This document shows, one piece after another, positions 27,434-35,797 of a DNA stretch of 64,000 nucleotides. The notes under the pieces were generated by a model, which saw nothing but the letters and a program-made list of their open reading frames with translations, had not been told where the DNA came from and searched no databases. The stretch lies in the NCBI GenBank assembly GCA_903904005.1, contig CAIVAR010000155.1, positions 1 through 64,000 of the forward strand, written 5' to 3'. A program made the position numbers and the translations under genes. The stretch comes from an uncultured Anaeromyxobacter sp. Lineage in GTDB: Bacteria > Myxococcota > Myxococcia > Myxococcales > Anaeromyxobacteraceae. Position 1 is the first letter of the stretch; each line of letters opens with the position of its first letter.

Positions 27434-28614
27434 GCGAGCCCCGGCCAGGCGGTGGCGAGACGTCCGGGAAGCTCGGCGAGTGCGTAGCGGCGGGCCACCT
27501 CGAGACTCTCCCTCGCCGCCGCGGCCGGGTCGAGGGAGAGCGCCCGGCCGAGGGCCCGGGCCAGCTCGGCGGGGTCCCGTCCGTCGACGACGAAGCCGTT
27601 CCTCCCGGGGCGCACCAGCGCACGGGCGCCGCTCACCGCGGTGGTCACGAGCGGCTTGCCGCATCCGAGCGCCTCGAGCATGGCCACCGACCAGCCCTCG
27701 CGGTGGGACCCGACGACCACGACGTCGGCGGCGTTCACGTTCAGTGCGACGGCGGACGGGGTGAGGAACCCGGTGACCGAGACCCGGTCCGCGACGCCGA
27801 GGTCGCGGGCCGCCGCCTCGACCTCCGGCCGGTCCTCCCCGTCGCCGACGAAGCGGAGGCGGGCGCCGGGACGATCGGCGCGGAGCCGTGCGAAGGCGGC
27901 CAGCACGAGGTCCCATCCCTTCACCCGGTTGAGCCGCCCCACCGAGACGACGAGGGGGCTTCCGGCCTCGCCGCCGATCCGCTCCCGGGCCTCGGCGCAC
28001 GGGATCGGGAAGAAGACCCGCTCGTCGTAGTGGCTCGGCAGGCTGTGGACGCGGGAGCGGGGGAGCTTGCCGCCGGTGCGGGCCACCAGCGCGTCGACCG
28101 CCTCGTCATCGGCGCTGGCGAGGACGGCGTCGGCGCGCCGCAGCGCCCGGAGGAGCAACCGGTCGTGGACCGCGGCGAGCGGCCGGGCCCAGGCGTAGCG
28201 CGCCGAGGCGAGCGGGTTCTCGGTGCCGGGGAAGCAGTAGCAGAGCCGCTCGAACCCCCAGCCAGCGACGGCGAGGAGGTCCTCGGGCGCCTGCGTGAAG
28301 GCGGCGCGGACGCCCAGCGAGAGGATGGCCTCGCGGTGGCGAAGGAGCCCCAGGTGGCGGGAGAGCCGGGCCGGCACCCTCGGCTTCCCCGCGCCGACCG
28401 CGCGCCGACCGGTGGCGAAGAAGCGGAAGCGCCGGCCGTCGATCTCCCGCTCCACCCACCGCCCCACCGGCGTGCCGTCCGTCGAGATCCCCACGAGCGC
28501 GAGCCTCGGCCCGAACGCCGCCATGAGCTGGCGCGCCACGGCGAGCTGGCCGCCCGCCGGGAACCGGTCGAAGTCGCACCCCTCGAGGAGGAGGCAGTCT
28601 GGTGGCGTGGACAT
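27430..28614 (-). CDS. GT4-family glycosyltransferase (minus strand)
   Basis: About 394 aa from ATG 28614; a start 13 codons upstream (28653) is possible but the added residues look unconserved. N-terminal [21 protein letters not shown] corresponds to the glycine-rich acceptor loop. The C-terminal part has [23 protein letters not shown] and a donor site [36 protein letters not shown]. It is first of a two-gene minus-strand unit lying inside the otherwise plus-strand locus. Confidence 0.86.
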
Positions 28615-28710
28615 GGAGACCCGCAAGCAGGTCACACCCTCGCGCCCCGGCATGCGACATCACGCCCCATCCGGGCTGTCCCGGGGGAACCGGTGGAGTG
28701 TCATGGAGGC

Positions 28711-30090
28711 ATGTTCGCCACGACCATCGCGCTCGCCGCCTCCTTCGCACTGGCGCTCGCCCTCACCCCCCTGGCCGGCCGCCTCGCGCGCCGGGTCGGG
28801 GCCCTCGACCACCCGCTCACCGGCCGGAAGTCACACGCCACGGCGGTTCCGCGCATCGGCGGGCTGGCCATCGCCGCCGCCTTCCTCGGGGGGACCTCCC
28901 TGGCCGCCCTGGCGGCGGGCCCCGCGATCCAGGGACAGCGGCTCGTCGCCATCGCCCTCGCCGGCATCTTCATCGTCGCGGTCGGCGCCGTCGACGACAT
29001 GCGCGGAATGGCACCGCGCCTGAAGCTCCTGGCCCAGGTGGCCGCCGCGGCGCTCGTCTGGGCAGGGGGGCTGCGCATCGAGGCCATCGCCAGCCCCTTC
29101 GGCGACCCGCTGCCGCTCGGAGGGCTGGCCCTGCCGTTCACCCTGCTCTTCCTGGTCGGCGCCATGAACGCCATGAACCTCATCGACGGCCTCGACGGCC
29201 TGGCGGGCGGGATCGCCGCGGTCGCGGCGGCGGCGGCGGTCGCGGTCGGGGTCCGCCGGGGCGATCCGGTCCTCGCGGTCACCGGCGCGGCGGTGGCGGG
29301 GGCCTGCCTGGGATTCCTCCGCCACAACCTGCGCCCCTCGAGCATCTTCATGGGGGACAGTGGCAGCCTCTTCCTCGGCCTCGTCCTGGCGGCGAGTTCC
29401 ATCCCGGTGGCCGGGCAGGCCGCGCAGGGCACCGAGCTGCTCGCCCCCGTGGTGGCACTCGGGGTCCCGGTGCTCGACACGGCGATGGCGCTCTTCCGCC
29501 GCGCCGCCCGCGGGGCGCCGATCTTCTGGGGCGACCGGGAGCACCTCCACCACCGGCTCGTGTCGATCGGCCTCTCCCCGCGCCGCGCCATGGCCGCCCT
29601 CGTCGCCGCCGGCGCGGTGCACGCCGGGTTCGCCGTGGCGATCGCCGGGGCCACCGGGGCGCAGGTGGCCCTCCTCCTCGCCGCGATCGCGCTCCTCGAC
29701 CTCGCCGGGTTGCGCGCCATCGGCTACCTCCGCCCGGGCGTCATCGACCGGCTCATCGCCGAGCGTCGGCGCTACGCCGTTCTCCGCTTCGCGGTCCGCG
29801 TCGCCGCGACCCGCCTGAAGGACGCCCGGAGCCTGGAGGAGGTCCAGGCCGTCCTCGACGGCGCCGCGCCCGCCATCGGCGCCAGCCGGGCCCGGATCCT
29901 TTCGTCGAACGGCCCGCGGGTCGGCCGCGGCGGATCCCTCACACGCCACGGCCTTCGCGGCGAGCGTCCGGGCGGCGGCTCGCTCGAGTTCCGCTGGAAC
30001 CGGTCGCGCGCCGGCCTGGATCGCCCCACGGAGATGGCGGCGGAGATGCTCAGCGCGCGGGTCGCGGTGGCGGTCCGGCGGCTTTCCTAG
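28711..30090 (+). CDS. WecA/TagO-type polyprenyl-phosphate GlcNAc-1-phosphate transferase
   Basis: 459-aa membrane enzyme that starts the polysaccharide by moving a HexNAc-1-phosphate onto undecaprenyl phosphate. ATG 28711 has GGAGG just upstream. Catalytic motifs are AVDDMRGM (DDxxD region), [27 protein letters not shown] and a His-rich loop [12 protein letters not shown]. About ten helices occupy residues 1-350. The last 110 residues are a soluble extension absent from E. coli WecA (367 aa), with helical [21 protein letters not shown] then a basic Gly/Arg stretch. Its TAG overlaps the convergent beta-helix gene within CTAG. Confidence 0.9.
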
Positions 30091-32120
30091 TCCAGCCGGG
30101 GCAGCGGCTTCCACTCGCCGGGCGCGCCGGCGAGGGTGCAGACCCATCCGATGGGCAGCCCCTTCCCCGGGCTCGAGTTCCAGACGATCGAGCCGACCGA
30201 CCAGGGTGCGTTGCAGTCGGCCGGGGGCCCGCCGCCACCTGCGATGGCGATCCCGGCGCCCGCCCCGGGGCCGCCGGCGCGCGCCACCACCCGGCCGCGA
30301 TCCCAGACGTCCCCGCTCGCATCGTAGGCGGAGATCCGCCCCCGGTACTGGTCGAGGGTGGCGCCGGTCACCCTGGGTGGATTGGCGCCCGGAAGGTCGA
30401 GGCCGAGGACGGAGAAGTTCCAGCCGTTCTGGGTGAGCCGGATGGTCTCGAGCGGCGGATCGTAGCCCGTGGCGTAGCCGCCGATGACCCCGCCGCTGCG
30501 CACGCGATCCACCCGGATGGCACCGTATCCGATCTGCTTCGTCCAGGTGGCGCGGTAGCTCCCGCCCACGATGGTGGCCGAGGCGGCGTGGAGCGGATCG
30601 AGCCCGATCTCGACGTCCCAGCCGTGGTTCCCCTCGAAGTACGGGTGCAGCAGCGTCACCTCGGTCGTCGCGCCCGTGGTGGGGGTGCCGATGACGATCC
30701 CCTGCGAGGTGGCCGGGCTCTGGATGCTGCCGCAGGACTCGGAGGTGAGCTGGTCGAAGAGCACGCCGTAGGCCTTCTCCACGATCACGCCCGGGCCGGT
30801 GGAGAGCGTGGTGGCGAACTGCTCGACGTGGACGGTGGTGGCCTCGATGCCGGCAGCCGTGGCGCCGATCCAGAGCCCGGTCCCGGCGTGCCGGGCCCGG
30901 AGGTGGGAGAGGCGGGCGTGGAGCGTCCCGCGGATCCGGAAGGCGTAGCGGCTGGCGTAGGACACCGTGATGTTCTGGAGCGTCGGCCAGGTGGCGCCGT
31001 GCACGACCACCCCGTCGCGGAACTTGTTCACACCGGAGCCGTAGACCGTGAAGTCGGTCAGGAACACGTTTCGACCCGCGCCGCTTCCGTCACCGACGGT
31101 GAGGACGTCGGAGGAGGTGTCCATGTCGGCCCGCAGCGCCGTGGTGTGCGCGCCGTGCCCCTCGATGCGGACCGCGTCGCCGCGGACGGTGAGGGGCGAG
31201 GCGACCCGGTAGACGCCGCGTGGCAAGGAGACCGTCCCGCCCACCCCCTGGTTCCACTCGAAGGAGTCGATGGCGGCGTGCGACGCGGCATCGATGGCGG
31301 CCTGGATGGCGGGGGCGTCGTCGGTCACGCCGTCGCCCCGGGCGCCCCACCACTGTGGGTACACCCGCGCGTTCGGCACCCGGACGTCGAGGGTGCCGCC
31401 GTTCAGGTGGAAGATGCGCGACCAGGTGCCGAGGAGCGGGCCGCGCAGCGCGAGCGAGGCGCCGGGCCGGAGGTCGAAGCTCCCCGACCCGACGAGCTGC
31501 ACCGTGCCGTTCACCACGGCCGCGCCCGACGCGAGCCGGAGCTTGCAGGGGACGATGATCGTGTCGCCGGACTTCCCGGCCGCCTCCGCAGCGGCGAGGA
31601 GGGCCGGCGCGTCGTCGGCGATGCCGTCGCATCGGGCCCCGAAGGAGGTCGGGTCCACCACGCCGGCAGGCGGCTGCCCGGCTCCCCCCAGCGCGGTGAA
31701 GACGGCGGTGATGCTGGCCGCACCCGCCATGGTGACGTCGCAGGCCCCGGCGCCGGCGCAGCTGCCGCCCCAGCCGGAGAAGCGCGCGTCGGGCCCCCCG
31801 GGGACGGCGGTGAGCCGGACCACGCGCGGCGGGCTCGTCGTCGGCACCAGCGCCCAGCAGAGCCGGGCGGCGGACGAGACGTCCCCCTGGAGGACGGAGC
31901 AGGTGAGCGGGACACCCGACGCGGTGATGGTCCCGGACGCGTCGCCGAGCAGCTGCACCGAGAGCAGCACGGTGCCCGTGGAGGCGCCCGGCTGGCCCGA
32001 GGCCCCTGCCGCGGTCCCCGTCGAGGTGCCGGACGTCGCGCTCGTGCACCCGGACAGGGCGACGAAAAGAAGCAGCAACAGGGCCGGGGCCCTGACGGGA
32101 CGGCGCTTCTGGTTATCCAA
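30087..32120 (-). CDS. Beta-helix lipoprotein resembling pectate-lyase/phage tail-spike proteins
   Basis: 677-aa predicted lipoprotein (lipobox ALSGC, Cys25). The start is TTG 32120, chosen because AAGGAG lies eight bases upstream and no ATG is nearby. After a Thr/Ser/Gly linker and a small beta domain there are two copies of the pectate-lyase-3 entry motif: [16 protein letters not shown] (about 160) and [20 protein letters not shown] (about 258). A long right-handed beta-helix follows to about 620. Residues about 640-675 ([20 protein letters not shown]) resemble the small C-terminal modules of phage tail-spike and capsule-depolymerase proteins. It may trim or bind the exopolysaccharide; no catalytic residues can be assigned. 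Confidence 0.75.
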
Positions 32121-32192
32121 GTTGGAGGCTCCTTCTTTCCTGACACCATCCTCCTCCAGGGCGTGCCCTCCCGCATGGGTCGTGTCATCCGC

Positions 32193-32220
32193 TTGCGTTC
32201 GAACGGATGTTCAGTATTCT
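32193..32220 (+). promoter_or_regulatory. Candidate recA promoter with LexA-like operator
   Basis: TTGCGT (32193-32198) and TATTCT (32215-32220), 16 bases apart, form a plausible -35/-10 pair reading towards recA. The spacer holds CGAACGGATGTTCA (32200-32213), a GAAC-N4-GTTC palindrome matching the classical Gram-positive SOS (DinR/LexA) box in all but its last base. A second GTTCAG motif follows at 32224-32229. LexA bound here would block polymerase, giving DNA-damage induction of recA. The palindrome is directly visible; the LexA reading is inference. Confidence 0.6.
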
Positions 32221-32291
32221 TCCGTTCAGGTAGGTTGTCGGACCCCCCTGCTATGAGGCGGGGCGTCGGAACGAACGAACGGATGAACGAG

Positions 32292-32308
32292 GGGGCGCAA
32301 CGCGCCCC
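32292..32308 (+). promoter_or_regulatory. recA: Hairpin in recA 5' leader
   Basis: GGGGCGC-AAC-GCGCCCC is a perfect 7-bp GC stem with a 3-base loop. It ends three bases before the recA ribosome-binding site AAGGAG (32312-32317). It is not followed by a T run, so it does not look like an intrinsic terminator. It could modulate ribosome access or protect the 5' end. No known RNA family is claimed. Confidence 0.4.
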
Positions 32309-32325
32309 GACAAGGAGCGGTGAAG

Positions 32326-33399
<1,074 letters not shown>

Positions 33400-33400
33400 C

Positions 33401-33415
33401 TCCCTCCCCGAGGGA
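33401..33415 (+). terminator. Hairpin directly after recA stop
   Basis: TCCCTC-CCC-GAGGGA forms a 6-bp stem immediately after the recA stop codon. No T run follows, so it is only a weak candidate for a transcript end or for 3'-end protection of recA mRNA. Confidence 0.25.
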
Positions 33416-33455
33416 AGTCCCGCTGCGCTCCGGCACACGGTACACTCGCCCTTTC

Positions 33456-34838
33456 ATGGGCGGCCCCCTCGACTCGAAGGACTGGCTCTCGGCGACCATC
33501 GCGTCCCGGCTCGACGGGCACGAGCCGGCCGCGGTGCGCGCCCGCCTCCCGCGGGAGTTCCGCGACGCCGACCCGGAGGGTCCCGACCTCGAGGCCCGGG
33601 CCCGCATGCTCGTGGCCCGTTCCCTGCGCCACCGCGTGCTCGACCGGCAGGCCCAGGACGACGAGACCACCGTCGGCACCGTCGCCGGCCACCTCGACAT
33701 GATCCTCGACGTGGCCGCGCTGCTCGAGGTCCCGTTCGAGGCCGCGGCCTGCCGGGCCGAGCTCGCCGCCATCCTCGCCGCCGGCACCGGTGACGTCGCC
33801 GGTGCGCTGAAGGTGGTGCCCCGCAAGGGCGTGGCCCCGCCCGCCGCGCTGGTCGGCCGCACGCTCGCGAAGGCCGGGCAGCGGCTGCTCCGGGTGCACT
33901 TCCCACCCGGCGATCCCGAGCACGGCCTGCCACTCTACGCGGGCACCATCGCCATCCAGCGCCGCCTGCTGGCGCGGCTCGCGCTCGACTATTTCCGCGC
34001 CGGGGAGCTCGAGCCGGACGACGCCGTCGTCGACCTCGAGCAGGCGCGGGACGAGGAGCTCCTGCTCGTGGAGGCGCTCGCCGGGCTCTCGAAGGCCGAC
34101 CCGCTCGCGCCGCGCCCCGACCGCCGGGTGGTCTCCCGCCAGCTGGAGCGGATCGGGCTCGACCGCGACCGGGTCCAGGACGCCCGCGCGGCCTCCTCGG
34201 ATCCCCGCGAGCCCGAGGAGATCGTCGCCGAGACCCCCCCGCGGCTGCGGAACTTCCTCGTCGAGCAGCTCCTGCTCGCCGCGCTGGGGATGCCCTCCGG
34301 CTCCACGCCCCGCGCGGAGTACCTGGCCCGCTTCGCCAGCGCCGCCGAGATCTCCCCCGACCGGCTCGCCGCCATGCAGGTGGAGGCCGCGGCCTTCCAC
34401 GCCGACCACCAGGCCTGGTTCCGCGCCTTCGGCCTGCCGGAGGAGGCTGGCTGGAGCGAGCTGACCGACGAGTGGAACGACTTCGGCGAGCGCATGGTCG
34501 ACAGGGTGGCCACGGTCGTGAACGAGAACCTCGACGCCATCGCGGTCGAGTTCCGGCAGACCGGTGAGCTCGGGACGCTTCTCGCCAAGGCGGCGGCCGG
34601 CCAGCCGCTCGACGCCGTCGAGCGGCGCAAGGTGAAGGAGCAGCTCATCGACCTCGCCAAGGCCGTGCCGGCGCTCGCCATCTTCGCCGCCCCGGGCGGG
34701 ATGGTGCTCCTCCCGCTGCTCGCCAAGCTCCTCCCCTTCGACATGCTGCCCTCGGCCTTCCACCCGAGCAGCAAGGAGGCGGCCCGCAAGGAGCGGGAGG
34801 CGGAGCGCGGCCGGAAGGGGCGAAGCGGCAAGGCCTGA
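33456..34838 (+). CDS. TerB-like / LETM1-like domain protein, function unknown
   Basis: 460-aa, apparently soluble, helical protein without a signal peptide. The middle (about 265-320, [16 protein letters not shown]...[18 protein letters not shown]) resembles TerB-type helical domains. The C-terminus (about 385-436) has [27 protein letters not shown] followed by [20 protein letters not shown], which closely follows the ribosome-binding-like domain of mitochondrial LETM1 proteins (P-F-x-LP-S-x-F ending). It ends in a Lys/Arg tail. Domain resemblance is by eye. It lies between recA and fmt on the same strand, with 57 bases after recA and 32 before fmt. Role unknown; ribosome or membrane association would be a guess. 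Confidence 0.7.
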
Positions 34839-34870: not shown

Positions 34871-35797
34871 ATGCGCATCGCCTTCCTCGGCACGCCGGCG
34901 TTCGCCGTCCCGGCCCTCGACGCGCTCTCCTCGGCCGGCCACGAGGTGGCCGTGGTGGTGGCGCAGCCCGACCGGCCCGCGGGTCGCGGGCAGGAGCTGC
35001 GGGAGCCGGCCACGAAGGGCTGGGCGCGCGCCCGGGGCGTGCCGGTGCTCCAGCCCGCGAAGGTGCGCGACGGCGTGCTGGCCGGGCAGCTCGCCGCCCT
35101 CTCCCCCGACCTTCTCGTCGTGGTGGCCTACGGGCGCATCCTCGGCGACGACCTCCTCCGGCTCGCGCCCCAGGGCGCGGTGAACGTGCACGCCTCGATC
35201 CTCCCCCGGTGGCGCGGCGCCGCTCCCATCCAGTGGGCCATCGCCGAGGGGGAGCGGGAGACCGGCGTCACCATCATGCAGATGGACGCGGGGCTCGACA
35301 CCGGCGACATCCTCCTGCAGCGCACGCTCCCCGTCGGCGACGACGACGCCGGCGCACTCTCCCCGCGGCTCGCCGCGCTCGGGGGAGTGGCGCTCGTCCA
35401 GGCCCTCGCCCTCCTCGAGGCGGGCGCCGTCGTCCCGGTGGCGCAGGACGGCGCGAAGGCCACGCTCGCCCCCGTGCTCGAGAAGGAGCACGGCCGGCTC
35501 GACTTCCGGATGCCGGCGGCGCGGCTCGCCGCACGCATCCGCGGCTTCAGCCCCTGGCCCGGCGCCTTCACCGCGCTCGGCGGCCGCACCCTCAAGGTGC
35601 ACGCCGCCCGGGCCGGCGGGGATGGGGGCCTCCCCCCCGGCGCGGCGCGGGGCAATCCGGAGGGGCTGCTCGTCGGCTGCGGCGAGGGATCGACGCTGCT
35701 CGTGACCGAGGTCCAGCTGGAGGGGAAGCGGCGCGTCCCGGCCGCCGAGTTCCTCCGCGGGCATGCGATCCCGGAAGGCACGGTTCTCGGACCGTGA
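34871..35797 (+). CDS. fmt: Methionyl-tRNA formyltransferase
   Basis: 308-aa enzyme that formylates initiator Met-tRNA. The opening is MRIAFLGTPAFAVPALDAL. The folate site and catalytic region are NVHASILPRWRGAAPIQWAI (Asn/His) with the downstream Asp in MDAGLDTGDIL. The C-terminal OB-like domain has RIRGFSPWPGAFT. Its stop overlaps the GTG of rsmB by 4 bases. No def (deformylase) gene, its frequent partner, is in the window. Confidence 0.96.
   Translation: MRIAFLGTPAFAVPALDALSSAGHEVAVVVAQPDRPAGRGQELREPATKGWARARGVPVLQPAKVRDGVLAGQLAALSPDLLVVVAYGRILGDDLLRLAPQGAVNVHASILPRWRGAAPIQWAIAEGERETGVTIMQMDAGLDTGDILLQRTLPVGDDDAGALSPRLAALGGVALVQALALLEAGAVVPVAQDGAKATLAPVLEKEHGRLDFRMPAARLAARIRGFSPWPGAFTALGGRTLKVHAARAGGDGGLPPGAARGNPEGLLVGCGEGSTLLVTEVQLEGKRRVPAAEFLRGHAIPEGTVLGP

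Follow-up and report, generated by a model that had tools for sequence, protein, structure and literature searches.

Genes and features at the locus

The window, the whole 64,000-nucleotide stretch of Anaeromyxobacter DNA analysed here, contains a 460-codon open reading frame on its plus strand, between recA and fmt (Table 1). The gene is present as the original prediction had it and the sequences quoted there were found, but [20 protein letters not shown], taken as the end of the protein, is followed by a further 25, mostly charged, residues.

Table 1 Features of the gene and its surroundings in the window
Feature	Position	Strand	Evidence
recA, upstream neighbour, 56-bp gap	32320-33399	+	TIGR02012, E 5e-169
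-10-like element TACACT, 9 nt before ATG	33441-33446	+	Conserved TANNNT; spacer 33400-33455
Gene for a 460-residue protein, predicted to be C-terminally membrane-anchored	33456-34838	+	Open reading frame; 55/60 relatives; dN/dS 0.21-0.24
N-terminal helical region, residues 1-165, conserved W10 near start	33456-33950	+	AlphaFold2 model; conservation
TerB/DUF533-like helical region, about residues 168-307, degraded here	33957-34376	+	Pfam hits of relatives, mapped via alignment A3
Helices leading into the membrane, residues 357-403; conserved N358, E365, L372, L375, E389, Q396, D399	34524-34664	+	
LETM1-like stretch, residues 388-449	34617-34802	+	PF07766 model positions 4-64 of 229
Predicted transmembrane segment, residues 404-425, [22 protein letters not shown]	34665-34730	+	Hydropathy; highest conservation in the protein
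LP..LPSAF motif and short basic tail, residues 426-460	34731-34835	+	Sequence; conservation
fmt, downstream neighbour	34871-35797	+	TIGR00460, E 7.7e-79
rsmB-like open reading frame, after fmt	start GTG 35794		

This is a genuine, conserved, single-copy gene. Homologues turned up in 55 of 60 related genomes, one in each, and those of congeners are 80-82% identical to the window protein. Substitutions with respect to three congeners fall mostly at third codon positions, and the corresponding dN/dS of about 0.2 (0.21-0.24) shows that purifying selection acts on the gene. The closest named relatives are records titled uncultured Anaeromyxobacter and Anaeromyxobacteraceae, with which the protein also groups in the tree, and a profile search of the source genome with PF07766 (LETM1_RBD) matched this protein only. 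A 2078-residue open frame (28602-34838, plus strand) crosses the recA region in another frame and merges into the frame of the gene; it reflects the high G+C content, and open length does not help to tell genes apart here. Also near recA, on the minus strand (30087-32120), there is a 677-residue lipoprotein-like open reading frame with pectate-lyase-like sequence as judged by eye.

A TANNNT element is found within 40 nt upstream of the start in 19 of 20 Anaeromyxobacteraceae loci, against 1.65 expected from shuffles, an excess that is only indicative because related loci are not independent. In Anaeromyxobacter it takes the form TACACT. A generic sigma-70 scan upstream of the gene found nothing. 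The conserved element suggests that the gene has its own promoter, from which a leaderless mRNA is possibly made.

A LETM1-like membrane module without the ribosome-binding domain

Although the protein had been described as soluble-looking, residues 404-422 are hydrophobic (mean Kyte-Doolittle 2.0) and constitute the sole strong transmembrane candidate, and the same peak appears in all eight relatives tested. PF07766 matches the protein above its cut-off (E 3.7e-7, 30.4 bits; cut-off 25.3), covering the first ~64 of the 229 model positions. Nakamura and colleagues point out that this Pfam entry takes in the transmembrane segment (PMC7058069). In human LETM1 there is a single transmembrane domain, at residues 209-229 (PMC6358941). 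Because the hydrophobic stretch falls there, the match corresponds to the membrane core and the helix preceding it, a kinship with LETM1 that rests on the Pfam model rather than on direct alignment to eukaryotic LETM1 sequences.

The truncated match is a property of the family. Of 117 Myxococcota genomes, 38 have a PF07766 hit over the cut-off and 74 have one at E <= 0.001, and in 74/74 the match ends by model position 67. For other loci, 11 genomes were covered, among them Bacteroidota, SAR324, one Fibrobacterota and one Planctomycetota MAG, and in all of these it ends at positions 51-94; the longest of these spans outside Myxococcota, which are flavobacterial, extend beyond the stop codon. 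The LETM/14-3-3-like, ribosome-binding domain after the membrane segment is thus absent from the window protein, which stops 35 residues past that segment, and from every relative tested (74 + 11 genomes). In LETM1, residues D358/D359 and R382/G383/M384, which are needed for function (PMC7058069, PMC9502063), are located more than 120 residues past the transmembrane domain, and their counterparts are absent from the window protein. Since these functionally important residues sit in the missing domain, LETM1-like activity may not carry over. Mitochondrial LETM1 and Mdm38 therefore resemble the bacterial proteins, at the Pfam threshold, in the transmembrane segment and the preceding helix; they differ in having the LETM/14-3-3-like domain and a long C-terminal region with an EF hand, and their membrane segment lies ahead of a large matrix domain, whereas in the bacterial family it is at the C-terminal end.

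Regarding conservation, the invariance of the IPALAIFA motif in alignments A3-A5 is partly by construction, as their members were selected on it, and conservation was therefore recomputed in an independent set, 26 relatives gathered by searching with the whole protein or with NF040639 and not by the motif. The values were 3.5 bits per position for the membrane segment, 2.8 for the helices before it and about 2.2 for the N-terminal half. Along with this peak in the membrane segment, E365, E389, D399 and prolines are conserved, a pattern that is unusual for a mere anchor. The tail of the window protein is strongly basic, which leaves the membrane topology uncertain.

The AlphaFold2 model of the window protein, built with 74 homologues, is all-helical (mean pLDDT 82, pTM 0.77) and confident throughout most of the body. 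Residues 1-165 are mostly at pLDDT 75-98, with the exception of 60-70 and 150-160, and confidence is low in the membrane stretch (pLDDT 53-59 at residues 411-440). The model of the Myxococcus xanthus protein agrees with it (mean pLDDT 80). In both, the membrane helix is broken at a conserved PGG, which would fit either a kinked helix or a re-entrant hairpin. Sequence searches of the PDB with the window protein and two profiles returned nothing significant. Foldseek searches of the PDB with either whole model gave no match at E <= 0.001, the helical array dominating the whole-model comparison.

A TerB-like body that is degraded in this lineage

TerB (PF05099) does not match the window protein up to E 1. 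It does match the relatives L083 and L078, at 37.0 and 36.3 bits (cut-off 24.4; E 4.5e-9 and 7.6e-9), and six of the eight members of another set of relatives (best E 2.4e-8); the related DUF533 model matches seven of these eight. The TerB-like region of the relatives carries ADG...E and DG...E motifs. Of these, the window copy retains "AD" near residue 213 and has lost the second, in which M279 and R286 replace D and E. As the relatives score and carry the motifs while this copy keeps "AD" alone, the guess of a TerB-like domain is correct for the family, whereas in the window protein it describes the past only. The combination of LETM1-like and TerB-like parts in the original prediction is supported for the family, with LETM1_RBD over the cut-off here and TerB in relatives; this copy lacks the ribosome-binding domain and a TerB score.

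The helical domain with its two motifs, as seen in relatives, is shared with TerB, the YebE-type DUF533 and the TerB-like domain of DjlA, and weak DjlA matches were obtained at the TerB part. DjlA has its membrane segment at the opposite end of the protein, and the present family, in contrast to DjlA, has no J domain and shows a decayed TerB motif in the window copy. Other TerB-domain open reading frames exist in the same genome (G000:C116:78595-80972 and C174:31194-31505), one of them an 877-residue open frame with two TerB matches.

Distribution and module-only relatives

Relatives occur across Myxococcota and in Flavobacteriaceae, SAR324, Fibrobacterota and Planctomycetota, and the members group broadly by phylum in the tree, on long branches. 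The NCBI family NF040639 ("LETM1-related biofilm-associated protein", Flavobacteriaceae) finds them in 146/193 Myxococcota genomes, none of which reaches the 250-bit cut-off, in 23/198 Bacteroidota genomes, 16 of them over it, and in SAR324 at up to 145 bits. Its match to the window protein covers residues 341-436 at 81.2 bits, under that curated full-length cut-off. Members of both groups are of similar length, start alike with a GW motif and carry the same membrane module at the C terminus, and their homology is clear; the flavobacterial members scanned differ in having no recognisable TerB match and in their gene neighbourhoods. With its TerB-like body, the family takes NF040639-like proteins into other phyla, and the membrane core is all that it has in common with LETM1. 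The literature search found neither the origin of the "biofilm-associated" label nor a dedicated study of the bacterial family. The description of the protein as uncharacterised is therefore nearly accurate, except that its C-terminal part matches PF07766 above the cut-off and NF040639 well below it.

Several relatives are reduced to the module. In L047, which belongs to a genus of the Myxococcaceae-like family f4, a clean open reading frame (L047:5198-5558) encodes 120 residues comprising the module only. The first residues of this protein, MKLG, recall the MxLGKxGWL with which full-length relatives start, and it looks like the product of a loss of about 330 internal residues; three further genomes of the genus have short frames or short matches. 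An Hsp90-like gene lies upstream of it on the opposite strand, as in relatives. Module-only proteins of 143 and 139 residues were found in a Fibrobacterales MAG (L064) and in L046, and a 254-residue protein in a Planctomycetota MAG (L124) lacks the TerB part; several of these short forms come from MAG contigs. The C-terminal ~95-residue membrane module thus survives alone in several lineages. Being the most conserved part and occurring without the body, it is what selection keeps, the TerB-like body being accessory.

Proposed function

We tentatively favour a plausible, if somewhat less than probable, arrangement in which a cytoplasmic helical body of ~400 residues, including the TerB/DUF533-like domain, is joined to a single C-terminal transmembrane segment homologous to the LETM1 core and serves cation or osmotic homeostasis. 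The module would insert in the inner membrane, self-associate into an oligomer and, by analogy with LETM1, affect cation (K+/H+ or Ca2+/H+) or osmotic balance, while the TerB-like body would act as a regulatory or docking domain that senses or docks a partner. LETM1 participates in K+ and volume homeostasis (PMC9502063), and its ion transport has been reported to be independent of ribosome binding (PMC6358941). Several observations count against the proposed function: the low AlphaFold2 confidence in the membrane stretch, the failure of both models to find a significant fold match in the PDB, the fact that no ion-transport gene recurs as a neighbour, and the location of the functionally important LETM1 residues in the missing domain. 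That the ~95-residue module is itself equivalent, in bacteria, to the ion-exchanging core of LETM1, working without the ribosome-binding domain, we consider rather unlikely.

The main competing explanation, possible although somewhat doubtful, is a membrane-tethered adaptor or co-chaperone scaffold, in which the TerB-like body would be the working part, in the manner of DjlA or YebE-type proteins, with the LETM1-like segment merely anchoring and oligomerising it during envelope or biofilm-related stress. The TerB/DUF533 matches of relatives, the weak DjlA matches at the TerB part and the word "biofilm-associated" in the name of the flavobacterial family are consistent with such a role; the decay of the TerB motif in the window lineage, and the loss of the body in several lineages that retain the more conserved membrane module, argue against it.

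The gene neighbourhood bears on two further alternatives. Among Anaeromyxobacteraceae, all 20 loci with sequence there have recA immediately upstream in the same orientation. Several other Myxococcia families also have it upstream, with a spacing that is similar or larger. A recA-linked accessory protein of DNA repair or the SOS response, located at the membrane, would fit this linkage but is quite improbable, given that the locus lacks recA in Myxococcus, Corallococcus, Polyangia-type families, SAR324 and Flavobacteriaceae, that a conserved -10-like element of its own precedes the gene and that Pfam scans of the window protein and relatives found no DNA-related domain. Within Myxococcia the recA neighbourhood is old, reflecting inherited position and not function. 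The downstream gene is fmt in some loci only, and neither neighbour was seen in other phyla. Of the recA-gene-fmt order, the recA side is kept through much of Myxococcia and the fmt side in part, and the run from recA through the gene and fmt to rsmB does not form a functional unit, also in view of the -10-like element.

Outside Myxococcia, clustering of neighbours revealed no consistent functional partner, and none of the loci compared pointed to an ion-transport gene as a consistent neighbour. In SAR324 loci, including L100, the start of a downstream KdtA-like (lipid A Kdo transferase) open reading frame adjoins or overlaps the homologue's stop codon, and the two may therefore be translationally coupled. 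A few Polyangia-type loci have a membrane pyrophosphatase gene close to the homologue (L041 and L038, upstream, other strand). These two neighbours have no common function.

Finally, a ribosome- or translation-associated membrane factor, comparable to Mdm38/LETM1 as mitoribosome receptor, is highly improbable: fmt adjoins the gene in part of the family and the Pfam name is LETM1_RBD, but the domain behind that name is missing in all members tested, the fmt neighbour is not widely retained and the PDB profile searches did not recover the Mdm38 domain. The action on ribosomes suggested earlier is unsupported, the LETM1 match being the membrane segment with an early stop throughout, and a ribosome role is unlikely because the domain responsible for it in LETM1 is missing.

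Significance of the family

A long-standing debate concerns whether LETM1 exchanges ions itself or, acting at the ribosome, has only a regulatory part in the exchange. A bacterial family with the membrane core alone, sometimes as a free protein of ~120 residues, is a natural separation of these two activities. Within the literature searched, Mdm38 has been described as a mitochondrial innovation (PMC8321541), and bacterial LETM1 homologues are mentioned in passing in one review (PMC6358941). If the ~95-residue module should nevertheless correspond to the ion-exchanging core of LETM1, the membrane core of this supposed innovation exists in bacteria, and the module-only proteins of 120-143 residues would be the smallest systems for testing cation movement by the core itself. 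The family bears on the origin of the LETM1 core and could be studied in culturable myxobacteria and flavobacteria, a simple setting for the role of that core.
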